A DNA stretch of 41,143 nt, taken from an uncultured Bacteroidales bacterium (GTDB taxonomy: Bacteria; Bacteroidota; Bacteroidia; Bacteroidales; F082). The stretch lies in assembly GCA_900318265.1 (NCBI GenBank), contig ONKA01000024.1, positions 1 to 41,143 on the forward strand, read 5' to 3'. This document shows positions 2,953-40,594 of the stretch, in pieces. Position numbers and translations under genes: made by a program. How positions within the stretch are numbered: position 1 is the first letter of the stretch; every line of letters starts with the position of its first letter. The notes below the pieces were generated by a model, which was not told the origin of the DNA, made no database searches, and saw only the letters and a program-made list of their open reading frames with translations.

Positions 2953-3016
2953 AGGTTGCTGAGCCTGTCGAAGCACCGTCATTAATCGGTCGGCCCTTCG
3001 ACGAGCTCAGGGACCT
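2953..3016. repeat. Palindromic repeat, CTGAGCC-TGTCGAAG family (copy A1)
   Basis: The left arm (2953-2977, core CTGAGCCTGTCGAAG) and the right arm (2992-3016, core CTTCGACGAGCTCAG) form an imperfect inverted repeat. It fills almost all of the 73-base gap between the convergent GH20 and nuclease genes. The transcript would form a long hairpin on either strand, so it may act as a bidirectional transcript end. The same family occurs at 10545-10609 and as a half copy at 31909-31932. Confidence 0.85.
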
Positions 3017-9701: not shown

Positions 9702-10442
9702 ATGTCAGAGAATTTGGTCATCATCCCGACTTACAAGGAGAAAGAGAACATCGAGAAGATTATCCGCTACGTCTTCAACCTGCCGATGGCGTTTGATATT
9801 TTGATTATCGACGACAACAGCCCCGACGGCACCGCCGACATCGTGAAAGGTCTGATGCAGGAGTTTGGCGACCGCCTGTTCATGATTCAGCGAGCAGGGA
9901 AGTTGGGCCTTGGTACAGCCTATATCACGGGTTTCAAATGGGCTTTGGAGCGCGACTACCAGTATGTCTTCGAGATGGATGCCGACTTCTCACACAACCC
10001 AGATGACCTATCTCGTTTGCATGATGCCTGCGCCAATGGAGCCGACCTCTCGGTGGGCTCGCGCTACAAGACGGGTGTCAATGTGGTCAACTGGCCCATG
10101 GGTCGCGTGCTGATGTCATATTACGCCTCGGCATACGTTCGTTTCGTCACCCGCATGAAGGTGCGCGACACCACGGCAGGTTTTGTGTGCTATACCCGCA
10201 AGGTGCTCGAGACCATCGACTTCGACAGAATCAAATTCGTGGGCTATGCCTTCCAAATCGAGATGAAATACACCGCTTGGAAACTCGGCTTCAAGATCGA
10301 GGAGGTGCCGATCATCTTTACTGACCGCCGTGAGGGACAGTCGAAGATGAGTAAGGGCATTTTCCGCGAGGCTGTGTTCGGCGTCATCAACCTGCGTTTG
10401 AGAGGCATGTTCGGAAAAATCAAACCGAGGAAGACAGCATGA
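9702..10442 (+). CDS. Polyprenol monophosphomannose synthase-like glycosyltransferase (GT2)
   Basis: The 246-residue enzyme matches the DPM1-like GT2 family, which transfers mannose (or another hexose) from a nucleotide sugar to polyprenyl phosphate on the cytoplasmic face of the membrane. Visible motifs are IIPTYKEKENI (7-17), IIDDNSPDGTA (35-45) and the metal-binding DAD at 93-95 in EMDADFSHNPDDL. The C-terminal region contains the typical EVPIIFTDRREGQSKM. There are no C-terminal membrane helices, as in the soluble catalytic-subunit type. The stop overlaps the pyrC start (ATGA), so translation of the two is coupled. Confidence 0.9.
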   Translation: MSENLVIIPTYKEKENIEKIIRYVFNLPMAFDILIIDDNSPDGTADIVKGLMQEFGDRLFMIQRAGKLGLGTAYITGFKWALERDYQYVFEMDADFSHNPDDLSRLHDACANGADLSVGSRYKTGVNVVNWPMGRVLMSYYASAYVRFVTRMKVRDTTAGFVCYTRKVLETIDFDRIKFVGYAFQIEMKYTAWKLGFKIEEVPIIFTDRREGQSKMSKGIFREAVFGVINLRLRGMFGKIKPRKTA

Positions 10443-11830
10443 ACTACCTAATAAAAAATGCGACACTTGTCAATGAAGGCCAGACCTTTGTGGCAAGTGT
10501 TTTCGTTTCGGATGGAAAGATTGCCAAGATTATCCGTGAAAACCAGGTCCCTGAGCCCGTCGAAGGGCCGGTCGATTCTGGGACGGCCCTTCGACAAGCT
10601 CAGGGACCTTGTACACAAGTCATCGATGCCACAGGCAAATACCTCATTCCCGGCATCATCGATGAGCATGTGCATTTCCGTGAGCCAGGCCTGACGCATA
10701 AGGCCGACATCTACACGGAGAGCCGTGCGGCCGTGGCAGGTGGCGTGACTTCGTTCATGGACATGCCCAATACCAATCCGCAAACGACTACTCAAGAATT
10801 ATTGCAGCAAAAGTTTGACCTTGCAGCCGAGAAGTCTTTGGCCAACTATTCCTTCTATTTGGGCGCTACCAATGACAATCTTGCTGAAGTCGTCAAGACT
10901 GATCCGAAGAAGGTCTGTGGCATCAAGTTGTTTATGGGCTCCAGCACGGGTAACATGCTAGTGGACAAGAATGAGGTTTTGGTACGCCTGTTTAGGGAGT
11001 CGCCGTGCCTGATTGCTGCACATTGTGAGGACGAACAGACCATCCATGAGAATACGGTGCGTTGCAAGGACTTGGCTGCCAAAGGTGAAGTCATTGCTGA
11101 TGCGAGCATTCATCCTTTTGTTCGTACCATGGAGGCTTGCTATAAGTCCTCGTTCAAGGCCGTCGACATGGCAGATCATTTTGGTGCGAGACTGCATGTG
11201 ATGCATATCTCCACCCAAAGGGAGATGTCTTTGTTTAGAAACGACATTCCTTTGCAAGACAAAAAGATAACGGCTGAGACTTGTCCGCATTACCTGTGGT
11301 TCGACAACCACGATTATGAGGCCAAGAGCTTCGCCATCAAGTGCAATCCCGCCATCAAGTCGCACCGCGACAAGGAAGCCTTGCTACAGGCTTTGCATGA
11401 TGGTTTAATCGACACCATCGGCACCGACCACGCTCCTCATCTGAAAGAGGAGAAGTTTACGGGTGACTATTTCACGAGCAAGTCGGGTTTCCCGTCCGTC
11501 CAACATTCCTTTGAGGTGATGGCCAATGTGTTGCCAGACGATTTGTCGCTTTTGGTGCAACTGATGTGCCACAACCCCGCCATCCTGTATCAGATTGACC
11601 GTCGTGGCTTCGTCCGAGAAGGCTATTATGCCGATTTGGCTCTCGTTGACATGAACGTTAGCCATGTGATTTCTGATAAGGAAGAATTCTCAAAATGCGG
11701 TTGGACGCCGTATGATGGCATTACCTCCCATTGCCGCGTGACGCACACTTTCGTGAATGGGAACCTAGTCTTTGAAAATGGAGTGTTCCATGAAGAAGAC
11801 AAGGGCATGCGCTTGTGTTTTGATAGATGA
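10439..11830 (+). CDS. pyrC: Dihydroorotase
   Basis: The 463-residue amidohydrolase interconverts N-carbamoyl-aspartate and dihydroorotate in de novo pyrimidine synthesis. It shows the metal-binding DEHVHFREPG (75-84, His77 and His79), GIKLFMGSSTGN, AHCEDEQ, HVMHIST and GTDHAPH with Asp330. Length and motifs fit the type I-like dihydroorotase/allantoinase group common in Bacteroidetes. The start overlaps the stop of the glycosyltransferase by 4 bases. Residues about 36-57 (QVPEPVEG...ALRQAQGP) are not family sequence. They are the translation of a palindromic repeat at 10545-10609, inserted in frame between the N-terminal strands and the first metal-binding motif. All catalytic motifs downstream are intact, so the enzyme is probably still active. 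Confidence 0.95.
   Translation: MNYLIKNATLVNEGQTFVASVFVSDGKIAKIIRENQVPEPVEGPVDSGTALRQAQGPCTQVIDATGKYLIPGIIDEHVHFREPGLTHKADIYTESRAAVAGGVTSFMDMPNTNPQTTTQELLQQKFDLAAEKSLANYSFYLGATNDNLAEVVKTDPKKVCGIKLFMGSSTGNMLVDKNEVLVRLFRESPCLIAAHCEDEQTIHENTVRCKDLAAKGEVIADASIHPFVRTMEACYKSSFKAVDMADHFGARLHVMHISTQREMSLFRNDIPLQDKKITAETCPHYLWFDNHDYEAKSFAIKCNPAIKSHRDKEALLQALHDGLIDTIGTDHAPHLKEEKFTGDYFTSKSGFPSVQHSFEVMANVLPDDLSLLVQLMCHNPAILYQIDRRGFVREGYYADLALVDMNVSHVISDKEEFSKCGWTPYDGITSHCRVTHTFVNGNLVFENGVFHEEDKGMRLCFDR
10545..10609. repeat. Palindromic repeat inserted in frame in pyrC (copy A2)
   Basis: The left arm 10545-10570 (core CCCTGAGCCCGTCGAAGGGC) and right arm 10584-10609 (core GCCCTTCGACAAGCTCAGGG) form a near-perfect 26-base inverted repeat around a 13-base centre. 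It belongs to the same family as 2953-3016 and 31909-31932. It adds about 22 codons to pyrC without a stop or frameshift. Confidence 0.92.
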
Positions 11831-31867: not shown

Positions 31868-31907
31868 GAAAAGCATCCACCTAAACGAAGGGTGGGTGCT
31901 TTTTTTG
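31868..31907 (+). terminator. Rho-independent terminator of mscL
   Basis: AAAGCATCCACC (31870-31881) pairs with GGTGGGTGCTTT (31891-31902, one T-G pair) around TAAACGAAG, followed by a T tract ending at 31906. Confidence 0.85.
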
Positions 31908-31908
31908 C

Positions 31909-31932
31909 GGTCCCTGAGCCTGTCGAAGGGCC
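31909..31932. repeat. Half copy of the CTGAGCC-TGTCGAAG palindrome family (copy A3)
   Basis: The sequence with core CCCTGAGCCTGTCGAAGGGC is one arm of the element seen at 2953-3016 and 10545-10609; the opposite arm is missing. It lies between the mscL terminator and the promoter of the next gene. Confidence 0.8.
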
Positions 31933-31950
31933 GCTTTTAGAAAAAAACAC

Positions 31951-31959
31951 TACATTTGC
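31951..31959 (+). promoter_or_regulatory. -7 box for the gliding-motility-domain cargo gene
   Basis: TACATTTGC matches TANNTTTGC, 20 bases before the ATG at 31980. The upstream region shows no clear TTG and carries the half repeat, so this promoter may have formed downstream of an inserted element. Confidence 0.55.
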
Positions 31960-31979
31960 AGTTTCAATGAATAGGCACA

Positions 31980-34246: not shown

Positions 34247-34274
34247 GTAGAGACGGTGTGCACACCGTCTCTAC
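34247..34274. repeat. 28-bp perfect palindrome, GTAGAGACG family (copy C1)
   Basis: GTAGAGACGGTGTG (34247-34260) is followed directly by its exact reverse complement (34261-34274). The same 28 bases recur at 35065-35092. It lies just after the stop of the T9SS type B gene and may act as an mRNA end. Confidence 0.95.
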
Positions 34275-34316
34275 CACAATACGATAAATAAAAACATAAT
34301 TTAAATATTGTTATCT

Positions 34317-35051: not shown

Positions 35052-35064
35052 TCACGGTTAATAG

Positions 35065-35092
35065 GTAGAGACGGTGTGCACACCGTCTCTAC
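35065..35092. repeat. 28-bp perfect palindrome, GTAGAGACG family (copy C2)
   Basis: It is identical base for base to the palindrome at 34247-34274 and lies 13 bases after the stop of the lipoprotein gene. Confidence 0.95.
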
Positions 35093-35111
35093 GACAAATG
35101 CAAAAAAAAAC

Positions 35112-35148
35112 GTAGAGACGTGCCATGGCGCGTCTCTACAATTTTTTT
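35112..35148. repeat. 28-bp palindrome variant plus T tract, GTAGAGACG family (copy C3)
   Basis: GTAGAGACGTGCC (35112-35124) pairs with GGCGCGTCTCTAC (35127-35139) with one T-G pair around AT, then a run of T ending at 35149. This copy looks like a working terminator for the + strand gene and lies 32 bases from the end of the convergent gap gene. Confidence 0.9.
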
Positions 35149-35180
35149 TGAGATTTCTTTGCCGCAGGCAAATCCCACAA

Positions 35181-36298: not shown

Positions 36299-39200
36299 AT
36301 GTCTGAAACCTTCAAATCTCAAGCCCTTGAGGCCAATCTGGCGCAAACGCGCTACAAAGATATCTTCATCCCTGAAGAACACCAACAATTTATCGACCTG
36401 TCGGCCAAGTACTTCGGCATCAACAAACGCGCCAAGGAATGCATCACCGAATACCATCATCCCCTGTCGAACCATACCTTCGTGACCGAGGAGCTGCGCA
36501 AGATGCTCCTTGACGATTTTTGGTTCTACACACGCGACGACGTCCCCGCCGACGCATTGCACATCCCCTTGGAGATGATGCACAGCTTGCTGAAGCCCGA
36601 AGTGGCCGCCAAACTGCGTCTTAATATCATCATCACCTTGATGGAGTTTGCCGATAAGACGTTCACGTCATTGCGAGGAGGAACGACGAAGCAATCCAGG
36701 CAGGAAGTTGTATCGCAGGATGGCATTTCAACTGCTGATGAAGCTGCATCTCTAGATTGCTTCGTTCCTCGCAATGACCTGATAGCAAAGGTCTTTGACA
36801 TCTTGAATGACGCTTTTGAGAACAACAAGGATGTCTATATCCTAGCCACGAAACATGCCGGTCGTTACCTCGACAAAGTGGCACAAGACGAGCGGTTCAA
36901 GGACCAAGCTTGCCAACTGCTCCACAAGATGCTGCAAGAGAACTACCGCTATTGGCAAGAGACCTCGCAGGTGGAAAACTGGGTGGAGAGCAAGAAGGCC
37001 TTGCTGTCCGAAGAGGAAATCAAGACGGTTTGCGACGAGATAGGACAACCTTATTTCAACCAATTGAACGCTGATTTGAAGGCTGCCGACACTTGGGAGA
37101 AACTCACCGACATGCCGCATTTCGAGCAGGTGGCCAAGCGTTTCACCGAGTCGGAGAAGGCCTTCCCGCATTTCATTACGAAGTTCCACTACGTCTTCTT
37201 CCTCCTGCATCTGCCGGGTATGGAAAACCAGCGTGAACGCCTCATTTGGAACATGGACCGCATGATGCGCGATGCCGTTGACGAGATGCCCCAAGATGAA
37301 CTGATACCCTTTATCGACACGATTTTTGGCTTGGCCGAGGAGCTGCGTAAGGATTACATGTCGGCCGTGCTCGATTTCCAGCAGACCTTGGGACTGAAAA
37401 TCATCGATGTCGACCAGACTGAGATGAAGGAAATCGTCAACTACTTCGAGAAGAAACTCATCAACTTCGGTTTTGTCACGCCGGGCAATGTGTTTGTTGG
37501 CGAGGACTGGCAACTCTCTGTGGATGAGAACCATATCAAGAACATCCGCGTGTGGCTTGAACTGATTGAGCATTCCAAGACGCCTATGGAAAAGCTGTTG
37601 TCAGCTTTGATCGTCAACCTGAAACTGGGTGGCATCTTCCTCAGCGATACCGACCTCTTCCAACGCGAAATCACCAAGGTGCTCAACTCCAACATCACGC
37701 CATATTACAAGAAGGTGAAACAGCTGACGCGCATTTTCCCCGTCTACTTCAACGAAATTGGCGCTGAGGGCGAGATCCGAAATGTGACCACCAACATGGA
37801 CGAAATTTCGGGTCGTCAGGACAAACTGGTGCATTTCCTCCGCAAGCAGGTGCACACCGAGAGCAACAACACCCTTATCGGACTGACCTTCGATGTGTTC
37901 AAGTTCTGGAGCGACGGTAACCTCGACCTGCTGAAGCCTATCCTGCCTAATAACGTCTTCGAGAGCATCGACAAGGAAAGCACTTGGTATGTGCCCATCC
38001 ACAATCTTGTGCAGACCATGTGCGAGATTTCGTGCCTCAATCCCGAGGATGTGCTGATGCTTTCGCGCGACGACTATGAGAACCTTATCGGTTCAGCAGC
38101 ACGACGCCTTGAGTTGGAGGACGACCTCTACCAACGTGAGCGTGCCCGCTTGATGGATATCCGTGACCTGTATGCTTACCTACGTGAGAAATACAGCTTC
38201 GAGTCGGTTAACATTTTTAGCTCGTTGCGTAGCTTCCCCTTCATTCCCGATGAAGAAATCGACAAGTTCGAGAAGGTGTACAAGGCCAAGGACTTCGGCA
38301 AGTCGCTGACGATGATTTATTCCTTTATGGACAAGCTCAAGACGGTTATCTTCAATCCCGAACAGAGCGAAGGTTGGGAAAACATCTACCACAAGCGCCA
38401 TATCGCCATAGGCATCCCGTCGATGTATGGCACCTATCGCGAGAACAAGTTTGAGGCCATGGGCTTGACCTTCCGTCTCGAGCGTGTGGCCACCCAGCTG
38501 ATGGAGAAGGTGGTGCAAAGCATCAACCTCGATTACATCTCCGAACGCACGCTGAATCAAATCTATAGCATCCTTGAATACTTCCGCGAGGGTCTCGAAC
38601 TTGACGGCATCACCAACCAAAGCCTCAACTCGAAACTCGACATGCTGCGCTACAGCTTGACGTCGCGAAGCTTCTCCTTCGGCCAGTACATCAACATCTT
38701 CCAATTCATCGCCGAAGACGTGCGCCGTATTATCATCAAGTATTTCTTGAAATCCTACGAATATCCGTTGAAGATTGTCATCCCGCAACTTTTCGACCCC
38801 GAAGGGAAACTCAATGAGCGTGAGACCGCGGCCTTGGTCAACAAAAAGTCAGAGGAATTCCACCGCGACTTGCTCTCCGATGCTTTCCTCATGCAGCCTT
38901 TGGACAACTTCATCGGTCGCATCCTCAACTCGTTGCGCACCATGGAGGCCACCCTCGATCCGAAGCTCATCAGCGACATCATGACCTACAACTCCGAGAT
39001 GCTCATCAGTCCCTTCTGGAAGAAGACGCCGAAGATGGACAACCAGGTGTTTATCGGAAACAAGGCCAACAACTTGAAGAACCTGTATCTGCACGGCATG
39101 CCGGTGCCTCCTGGCTTTGTCATTACCACGGAGACTTTCCGCCGCAACGAGACCATCAACACAATCCCTGAGTTGCGTACCGAGATTCACGGCATGATCC

Positions 39201-40531
39201 GTAAACACATCGAGGAATTGGAAAACATCTCAGGTCGCAAATTTGGTGAGGCTGACAAGCCTTTGCTGGTGTCGGTGCGCTCAGGTACGGCCATCTCCAT
39301 GCCGGGTGCCATGGACACCTTGCTCAACGTGGGCATGAATGACGAGATTGCAGAGGCTTTGGCGCAAGACGAAAGCATCGCTTGGGCGGCTTGGGACTCC
39401 AACCGCCGACTCCTGCAGAGTTGGGGTATGGCCAAAGGCATCGAGCGCGACGTCTTCGACGACGAGATCAATGCCTATAAGCAATTGAAGAATGTGAAGG
39501 TGAAGGCTGATTTCAGCATTGAGCAGATGCGCGAGGTGGCTTTCTCTTACAAGCGCATCTTGGACGATCACGGCGTCGCCTTTGAGCAGGATTCCTTCAA
39601 GCAGTTGATCGAGTGCGTCAACATGGTCATCGACTCGTGGAACTCGGAGCGTGCCTTGGCCTATCGCCGTCATCTGGGCATCTCTGAGAATTGGGGAACG
39701 GCCGTCATCGTCCAGCAGATGATTTTTGGCAACCGAAGCGACACCTCGGGCACGGGCGTGGTGTTTACGCAAAACCCGCATCGTGAGCGTCCTGGTGTGC
39801 ATCTCTATGGCGACTTCACCATGCGCAGTCAAGGCGAGGACATCGTGGGTGGTTTGGTCAAGCCGTTGCCCATTGGCGAGACCCAACGCAAGGCCGCGGG
39901 TTTGGAAGGACCTTCGATGCAGACCTTGCTGCCCGATATCTATAAGAAGATTTATTCCATTGCCGTGGAGCTCACCGAAAATCTCGGTTATAGCCCGCAA
40001 GAGATAGAGTTCACCTTTGAGTCCGACAAGCCCGAGGACTTCCGTATCTTGCAGATCCGCGACCAAGACCTGAAGACTGAAGAGGAAAAGGCAGCCTTCG
40101 TGTTGCCTCCCGAAGAGATGAAGCAGCTGGGTCACGGTTTGGGTATCGGCGGCGGTGCCATGAATGGTTTGGCCGCGTTCAATGCCGAGCAAATCAAGAC
40201 CTTGCGTGAGCAGCATCCCGACAGTTACGTTATCTTGGTCCGTCCCGACACCGTCCCCGACGACATCGGCATGATCTTCGACTGCGATGGCCTGTTGACG
40301 GCTCGTGGTGGTGCCACTTCGCATGCTGCTGTCACGGCAGTGCGTTTGGGTAAGGTCTGCGTGGTCAGCTGCGACGGTCTGGAGGTCGACGTTGACGATG
40401 AGTTTGGCCAGCTTAACGGGCAGCCGCTCAGCATGGGCAGCGAAATCGCTATCGACGGCGACTTGGGTATGGTCTATCTTGGCCATTATCAGACGGAAAA
40501 GATGAAAGTGGGGAAGGGGTATAATTATTAG
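36299..40531 (+). CDS. PPDK/PEP-synthase-like phosphotransferase without PEP-binding barrel
   Basis: The 1410-residue protein has about 915 N-terminal residues of a mostly helical region I cannot assign. An ATP-grasp domain of the PPDK/PEP synthase type follows (about 918-1265): NKANNLKNLYLHGMPVPPGF, LLVSVRSGTAISMPGAMDT, TGVVFTQNP and FRILQIRDQ. The swivelling phosphohistidine domain (about 1285-1395) has GGATSHAAVTAVR with His1342. The usual C-terminal PEP/pyruvate barrel is absent; the protein ends at the His domain. It can probably autophosphorylate from ATP, but the acceptor is unknown and may be bound by the N-terminal region. Residues about 124-161 are encoded by a palindromic repeat (36667-36778). 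Annotation as pyruvate phosphate dikinase would overstate what is visible. Confidence 0.85.
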   Translation: MSETFKSQALEANLAQTRYKDIFIPEEHQQFIDLSAKYFGINKRAKECITEYHHPLSNHTFVTEELRKMLLDDFWFYTRDDVPADALHIPLEMMHSLLKPEVAAKLRLNIIITLMEFADKTFTSLRGGTTKQSRQEVVSQDGISTADEAASLDCFVPRNDLIAKVFDILNDAFENNKDVYILATKHAGRYLDKVAQDERFKDQACQLLHKMLQENYRYWQETSQVENWVESKKALLSEEEIKTVCDEIGQPYFNQLNADLKAADTWEKLTDMPHFEQVAKRFTESEKAFPHFITKFHYVFFLLHLPGMENQRERLIWNMDRMMRDAVDEMPQDELIPFIDTIFGLAEELRKDYMSAVLDFQQTLGLKIIDVDQTEMKEIVNYFEKKLINFGFVTPGNVFVGEDWQLSVDENHIKNIRVWLELIEHSKTPMEKLLSALIVNLKLGGIFLSDTDLFQREITKVLNSNITPYYKKVKQLTRIFPVYFNEIGAEGEIRNVTTNMDEISGRQDKLVHFLRKQVHTESNNTLIGLTFDVFKFWSDGNLDLLKPILPNNVFESIDKESTWYVPIHNLVQTMCEISCLNPEDVLMLSRDDYENLIGSAARRLELEDDLYQRERARLMDIRDLYAYLREKYSFESVNIFSSLRSFPFIPDEEIDKFEKVYKAKDFGKSLTMIYSFMDKLKTVIFNPEQSEGWENIYHKRHIAIGIPSMYGTYRENKFEAMGLTFRLERVATQLMEKVVQSINLDYISERTLNQIYSILEYFREGLELDGITNQSLNSKLDMLRYSLTSRSFSFGQYINIFQFIAEDVRRIIIKYFLKSYEYPLKIVIPQLFDPEGKLNERETAALVNKKSEEFHRDLLSDAFLMQPLDNFIGRILNSLRTMEATLDPKLISDIMTYNSEMLISPFWKKTPKMDNQVFIGNKANNLKNLYLHGMPVPPGFVITTETFRRNETINTIPELRTEIHGMIRKHIEELENISGRKFGEADKPLLVSVRSGTAISMPGAMDTLLNVGMNDEIAEALAQDESIAWAAWDSNRRLLQSWGMAKGIERDVFDDEINAYKQLKNVKVKADFSIEQMREVAFSYKRILDDHGVAFEQDSFKQLIECVNMVIDSWNSERALAYRRHLGISENWGTAVIVQQMIFGNRSDTSGTGVVFTQNPHRERPGVHLYGDFTMRSQGEDIVGGLVKPLPIGETQRKAAGLEGPSMQTLLPDIYKKIYSIAVELTENLGYSPQEIEFTFESDKPEDFRILQIRDQDLKTEEEKAAFVLPPEEMKQLGHGLGIGGGAMNGLAAFNAEQIKTLREQHPDSYVILVRPDTVPDDIGMIFDCDGLLTARGGATSHAAVTAVRLGKVCVVSCDGLEVDVDDEFGQLNGQPLSMGSEIAIDGDLGMVYLGHYQTEKMKVGKGYNY
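36667..36778. repeat. Palindromic repeat (CATTGCGAGG...GCAATC family) in frame in the PPDK-like gene
   Basis: The left arm (36667-36696, GTCATTGCGAGGAGG... ending GAAGCAATC) and right arm (36755-36778, GATTGCTTCGTT... ending CTCGCAATGAC) are inverted copies that differ by six bases. They enclose a 58-base centre. The coding frame runs through as SLRGGTTKQS...DCFVPRND without a stop. From memory, this palindrome family recurs in many bacterial genomes, mostly between genes. Confidence 0.92.
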
Positions 40532-40594
40532 TTTAGAGTTTAGAGTTGTAGGGCTGTCACATGGTGGCAGCCGTAGAATAATAAGAAGAATAGT
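40531..40594. repeat. Short microrepeat and hairpin before yraN
   Basis: TTAGAGTTTAGAGTT (40532-40546) is a direct microrepeat. GGCTGTCAC (40552-40560) pairs with GTGGCAGCC (40564-40572, one T-G pair) around ATG. No T tract follows, so this is not a standard terminator, and no clear promoter for yraN is seen; yraN may be read through from the PPDK-like gene. Confidence 0.6.

Follow-up and report, generated by a model that had tools for sequence, protein, structure and literature searches.

A small palindromic element dispersed through a Bacteroidales genus and read in frame within the dihydroorotase gene

Palindromes that code for part of the protein in which they lie are, in the sections of PMC2229807 and PMC3767692 that deal with such elements, mainly those of Rickettsia and Wolbachia. 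As described there, the Rickettsia palindromic elements (RPE) and the Wolbachia palindromic elements are dispersed both between genes and in frame within conserved protein genes that seem to be intact; for R. japonica, the inserts that they encode are described as falling in solvent-exposed areas, and orthologues have inserts at the same sites. For RPE-4, RPE-6, and RPE-7, the part of PMC3767692 that treats their origin favors one diverged ancient insert, with hotspots not excluded. The portion of PMC3733652 on REP/BIME sequences (GTAG and CGTC super-families) describes short stem-loops with complementary stem variants, which occur across phyla as single units or dimers, and a passage of PMC2229807 gives the MITEs Correia/NEMIS, ERIC/RU-1, YPAL/RU-2, and RU-3 as non-autonomous repeats fused in frame to genes. 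Our search of CC-licensed PMC text, including by core sequence and encoded peptides, found no description of the element reported here.

This element lies in the dihydroorotase gene (pyrC) of an uncultured Bacteroidales bacterium, within a 41,143-nt stretch of DNA, the whole of which is referred to here as the window (Table 1). The RNA fold of positions 10542–10612 has a predicted energy of -53.5 kcal/mol (z -8.5), equaled by 0 of 200 shuffles, and the arms at 10542–10570 and 10584–10612 are 90% complementary. The ORF matches the dihydroorotase equivalog NF006688 (NCBIfam) over residues 2–463 with a score above the cut-off. The fold and this match bear out the original prediction, made from the window alone, of a 65-base inverted repeat translated in frame in an intact pyrC. 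The best solved relative, 2gwn, has gaps at the element position, and the loop measures 30 aa with the element versus 14 aa in element-free relatives. This net gain of ~16 residues indicates that part of the native residues was replaced or lost. Thus, the predicted codon span (36–57) stands, but the predicted gain of ~22 residues does not, and PyrC orthologues in the genus include the expected element-free loops, with loop lengths that point to partial replacement of native residues and not to a single clean insertion. From the sequence comparisons that follow, the PyrC insert is likely to belong to a family of small, mobile palindromes dispersed in the genome, of which in-frame copies survive and whose arms nest at their tips.

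Table 1. Positions of the element, its other copies, and family B palindromes in the window
Feature	Position	Strand	Evidence
pyrC, dihydroorotase ORF, 463 aa, element in frame	10439..11830	+	ORF calling, NCBIfam, solved-structure comparison
Complete element (inverted pair of arms), encoding QVPEPVEGP...ALRQAQGP at codons 36-57	10545..10609	+	Inverted repeat, fold
Left arm GGTCCCTGAGCCCGTCGAAGGGCCG, frame PEPVE	10546..10570	+	
Right arm, inverted, frame LRQAQ	10584..10608	-	
Full copy, intergenic, flanked by convergent ORFs (GH20 stop 2949; opposite ORF end 3023)	2953..3016	.	z -6.0
Single intergenic arm	31909..31933	+	
Family B copy (GTAGAGACG..CGTCTCTAC, dispersed palindrome also occupying the PyrC loop of related species)	34247..34275	.	
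Family B, second copy (GTAGAGACG palindrome)	35064..35092	.	
Family B, third copy (GTAGAGACG palindrome), within A/T-rich extended hairpin	35101..35150	.	

Matches to CTGAGCNNGTCGAAG with ≤2 mismatches number six in the window versus 1.15 expected, and 0 of 100 shuffles reach six. Both of the additional copies that had been proposed, one between genes and a half copy at 31909–31932, are present. The left arm of the intergenic full copy has a compensatory TGC/GCA stem, and the single arm, folded within 31900–31975, shows no strong hairpin (z 0.1). Another palindrome type, CGTCATTGCGAGG..GAAGCAATC / GATTGCTTCG..CCTCGCAATGAC, is found at 36666–36777, close to the N-terminal end of the PPDK_N/PEP-utilizer protein encoded at 36299–40531; it is in frame, encodes TSLRGGTTKQS...LDCFVPRND, forms a hairpin with z -3.8, and is, we presume, similar to CGTC-tagged repeats. 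The GH20 gene includes an in-frame ACTCTAAACTCTCAACTCTAAACT stretch at 1232–1262 (SKLSTLNCQ), which partially matches an inverted copy at 40523–40547; when folded, this repeat (~1232–1262) gave no hairpin (z +1.2). The earlier suggestion of three palindrome families in three enzymes therefore holds for PyrC and the PPDK-like protein, which carry hairpins of two types, but not for the GH20 repeat examined.

The genome of origin is a 2.98-Mb draft (50 contigs, 89% complete), a stretch of which shares 91.5% identity over 3015 nt with "bacterium F082" (NCBI genus label Candidatus Alcium); this match puts the host near that Bacteroidales lineage, which is one of the rumen. The genome contains 117 exact copies of CCTGAGCNNGTCGAAGG (63 + 54), and the reversed control gave 0. 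As the original prediction had anticipated, copies of the arm are scattered both between genes and within them, where the frame is kept. Our analysis of arm structure covers 115 exact core arms in 92 groups, taken from 100 listed places, the window, and one C45 copy. A single arm, which is the unit of the element, is a hairpin of ~25 nt with the pattern GG(T)NNC-TGAGC-NN-GTCGA-AGN'N'CC, and the full pair is ~65 nt. The outer stem dinucleotides are complementary in 111 of the 115 exact arms (CC/GG 90, TC/GA 8, TG/CA 6, GC/GC 5, GT/AC 1, TA/TA 1; incompletely paired 4), with compensatory change in 21 of them. Because the outer bases flanking the core are complementary, each arm is a hairpin, of which the 11-nt loop is conserved and the stem covaries.

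Arms occur singly, as inverted pairs, and nested one in another. Two-arm inverted pairs make up 28 of the 92 groups, and one three-arm group also includes an inverted arm. In nesting, the newer arm replaces the two-base tip of the older arm, in steps of 15 nt (14 cases), 24 nt (3), and 17 nt (1); steps of 15 or 24 nt thus account for 17 of 18, including 9 of 10 outside supported ORFs (see below). Since each nested step is usually a multiple of three, an element that grows within a gene would leave the frame intact.

Hairpin arms with covarying stems, inverted pairs, and nested copies are also consistent with a REP/BIME system moved by a dedicated host Y1 (RAYT) transposase, in which case the in-gene copies would be REPs that landed in genes. 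We regard this as possible but doubtful. There are 210 Y1_Tnp matches in total, in 70 of the 99 genomes of the genus, and Y1 gene number correlates with arm number (Spearman rho 0.60 in 91 genomes, kinship and genome size ignored), which favors a RAYT-driven system. RAYT genes are usually flanked by their own REPs; however, an arm (≤1 mismatch) was found within ~1.5 kb of Y1 at 0 of 33 loci sampled from the 210, a result that says little because random placement would give 1.95 arms, with a 0.14 chance of finding none. Three genomes with 12–60 arms, all drafts, lack a Y1 match, and base counts in the flanks of the 115 arms contain no constant GTAG or CGTC tag, both of which argue against this explanation.

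The reading of the element as a mobile palindrome that survives in frame draws on its distribution in genes of the same genome. In-frame groups lie within ORFs of ≥200 aa for 53 of the 92 groups, and within Pfam- or NCBIfam-supported ORFs for 40 of the 92, spread over 36 ORFs. Support was based on Pfam (NCBIfam for PyrC) and required that the element not precede the first domain near the N-terminal end. Four Pfam-supported ORFs (L159, L189, L190, and L001), in which the element is near the N-terminus and perhaps before the true start, enter neither the 40 groups nor the count of frames, and the same applies to nine ORFs of ≥200 aa in which no Pfam family passed its cut-off. Named by family, the supported ORFs with an element include MurB, a Mur ligase, DnaX, TilS, transketolase, a HemN-type enzyme, UDP-GlcNAc 2-epimerase, dTDP-glucose dehydratase, and methylmalonyl-CoA mutase. 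Across supported ORFs, the element is placed inside domains, in linkers, and in tails; examples are the tail of a GyrA/ParC-type protein, a GyrB/ParE-type subunit between two domains, the FtsZ C-terminal linker (twice), and linkers preceding type IX secretion domains. Compared with solved MurB 4jay, the MurB of this genome has 15 extra residues. The 2-epimerase and the dehydratase have extra stretches of a similar kind versus solved structures; the GyrB-type ORF had no match in the PDB at a strict cut-off.

The frames in use are uneven. Among 59 arms (≤2 mismatches) in supported ORFs, the frames are STGSG 23, PEPVE 19, LRQAQ 13, FDRLR 3, and LSLSK 1, so that 55 of the 59 use three of the five stop-free frames (p 1e-8 when the share of the two rare frames is tested against 2/5), and these three favored frames encode small or polar residues. 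Inverted pairs constitute 6 of 40 groups in supported ORFs versus 22 of 52 elsewhere (Fisher p 0.006). Altogether, the evidence favors tolerance of insertion in loops and linkers, in agreement with the proposal that mobile palindromes are tolerated in protein loops. Two other ORFs carry several repeats each: an alpha-2-macroglobulin-like ORF of 2080 aa (L170:2132-8371) contains three separate element groups, two in the STGSG frame and one paired, and in a ketoacyl-synthase ORF (L164, G000:C18, ~29415), a GAAGCAATC-type repeat lies immediately before a main-element arm (CEERSNLDMSALRQAQGP), so that two repeat types adjoin in one protein.

Within the genus, the core arm is found in 80 of 99 genomes (control 0–1 per strand). 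PyrC was matched in 94 of the 99, three of these without the N-terminus, and the remaining 91 N-termini have loops of 12 to 48 aa. The element (A) is present in the PyrC loop of 27 of the 91 genomes, as a full pair in 12, a forward single arm in 8, nested arms in 5, and a reverse single arm in 2; the five nested labels were set by hand. The rule for class A (≤3 mismatches) gave 27 genomes and 13 changes; once G003 and G046 (nested arms, 4 mismatches) had been included by hand and G004 and G050 (native-length loops) taken out, there were 27 genomes and 11 changes. Family B (GTAGAGACG..CGTCTCTAC), which is unrelated to A, occupies the PyrC loop of 13 of the 91 genomes and is dispersed in 96 of 99 genus genomes (control 0). 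By parsimony on a PyrC tree made without the loop, in which 27 of 88 inner branches have less than 80% support, there were at least 11 changes for A and at least 9 for B, gains and losses pooled. Arms (≤2 mismatches) in the 91 pyrC genes number 35 in the loop (the one in G050 judged a chance match), compared with 0 at other places in 123.5 kb. Genome-wide, each of the 27 genomes whose PyrC loop holds the element has at least 20 arms, with a median of 68 versus 2.5 in the 64 others (kinship ignored); at least 20 arms also occur in 10 of these 64.

Other repeats were met in PyrC loops as well. Tandem GTAGAGACG palindromes (GRDGACPVST repeats) occur in single loops, three in G061 (L143), the last imperfect, and two in G085 (L138). 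The loops of G064, G073, and G072 (L140, L142, L148) contain CAACAGACAACAG-like direct repeats (QQTTDNRQQ), and non-palindromic repeats may thus land there too. A palindrome in G017, G084, G078, and G070 (L049, L115, L129, L131), AAAATCATTTTTGGAAAAAATGATTTT, seems to be a copy, in inverted orientation, of the codons just before it (KIIF), possibly by template switch; AAAATCATTTTT and TTGGAAATAATG are further palindromes. We rejected GAAACGAAATC..GATTTCGTTTC as a third dispersed loop family; the PyrC loop of G045 is its sole occurrence in 99 genomes, and it is therefore a local palindrome. An origin of the native loop EPFDxGSA by decay of an arm was not supported, as loops classed as element-free differ from the arm at 4–8 of 13 positions, except those of G004 (3) and G050 (2).

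MurB provides a second site. Matches were found in 94 of the 99 genus genomes, and among 30 loci compared, the site WLIEQAG^WKGW is filled in 16 and empty in 14. Filled loci have 8 to 25 extra residues, several of them nested, and at least six changes are required over the 27 of 30 genomes placed on the PyrC tree. Filled and empty sites occur in close species that each have one MurB match: G018 is filled and G098 empty, a difference of 24 nt, and G000 is filled while G095 and G045 are empty. The G018/G098 pair has no obvious target-site duplication. In the genomes of five of the 30 loci (G114, G046, G020, G105, G111), MurB is matched a second time, in whole or in part, and the G121 match contains a stop codon.

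These distributions could also reflect ancient insertions that have since diverged and been differentially lost or swapped between species by recombination, without any site being hit repeatedly. In line with such a history, the 16 filled MurB loci all start in the same orientation and frame, and some single arms in PyrC could be what deletion has left of a full element (G000 vs G002). However, the PyrC loop is occupied by two sequence-unrelated dispersed families, the PyrC arm of G021 and G112 is in the opposite orientation and another frame, and close species differ by nested arms (G071/G049, G003/G102), all of which make a purely ancient origin unlikely. Allele exchange could in part account for the filled/empty differences between species.

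The hairpin might instead be selected in pyrC for RNA-level regulation, with unrelated palindromes substituting for one another. Palindrome-bearing loops are indeed among the more structured windows of their own genes (median rank within the gene 0.06 for element A, 0.08 for family B, and 0.11 for other palindromes). Yet the 34 element-free pyrC loops are ordinary (median rank 0.49, none <0.05), and most genome copies are at unrelated places, so that this explanation is very improbable; because element-free loops are unstructured, we rejected a conserved RNA hairpin function at the pyrC site. Assembly chimera or chance, to which the draft state of the genome might point, has a negligible probability, with the element in the PyrC loop of 27 of 91 separate genomes and diverged in sequence, and with shuffles and reversed-pattern controls giving essentially none.

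Of 60 genomes searched for an exact full pair, 13 had one, all of the host genus. The core arm also occurs in other phyla: it is present in at least 117 stretches of a species-genome collection, with at least 17 phylum labels and five stretches without a label. When 34 hand-chosen genomes from the collection were searched whole, 30 had at least 6 copies and 4 had 1–4, with a maximum of 377 and a reversed control of 0 in all. Single copies may be due to chance. Among the matches listed, the innermost flanking pair is complementary in 115 of 142 arms (shuffles: mean 67, largest 82), the second in 70 (mean 54, largest 73), and the third in 61 (mean 50, largest 65); by this comparison, only the first pair is clearly above chance outside the genus. 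ORF-and-frame matches in other phyla number 52, in 32 of the 117 listed stretches (FDRLR 15, PEPVE 12, LRQAQ 12, LSLSK 9, STGSG 4). We do not claim cross-phylum in-frame insertion; long ORFs over the arm show no three-frame bias, and shadow ORFs on both strands blur the count.

If the element is mobile, as we favor, copies would land widely, and a copy would survive where the frame is kept and the loop tolerates the peptide that it encodes, itself harmless, others being purged. Existing arms may draw further arms to their own hairpin tip. Candidate routes of mobilization are cleavage at the hairpin tip followed by copying from another copy, and a single-strand transposase acting in trans. More tentatively, the arm may be a trans-phylum hairpin element that targets its own tip and grows in 3n steps, and that in protein loops can lengthen, shrink, flip, or be replaced with the gene unbroken, i.e., a DNA parasite continually remodeling the loops of essential enzymes.

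In sum, the element resembles the protein-coding palindromes of the Rickettsia type, apparently now in a new lineage, the Bacteroidales, and with signs of repeated landing. For gene annotation, STGSG, PEPVEG, and LRQAQG peptides can be considered as element products, and the element bears on how essential-enzyme loops gain length. Compared with MITEs that have open reading frames, which are ~100–200 bp and in many cases have terminal repeats and target duplications, the present unit is far shorter, and no duplication is obvious in one MurB pair. Like REP/BIME sequences, the arms have complementary stem variants (111/115) and form inverted pairs (28/92 groups). Unlike GTAG/CGTC REPs, they lack a constant tag (115 flanks), have an 11-nt conserved asymmetric loop, and are heavily present in genes; compared with RAYT-linked REPs, the sampled Y1 loci have no arm nearby (0/33; 1.95 expected at random). 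The likeness to RPE that was originally proposed lies in behavior, i.e., a palindrome that is dispersed and in frame inside conserved genes (here 40/92 groups in 36 supported ORFs), and does not extend to size, RPE being ~100–150 bp versus ~25 nt for the present unit and ~65 nt for the full pair; the comparison is one of behavior and size. Unlike RPE, the present element has a Bacteroidales host, its arms nest, it shares a loop with an unrelated family, and sites that it fills in one species are empty in close relatives; with these features in one genus of 99 genomes, the question of hotspot versus ancient insert becomes directly testable.
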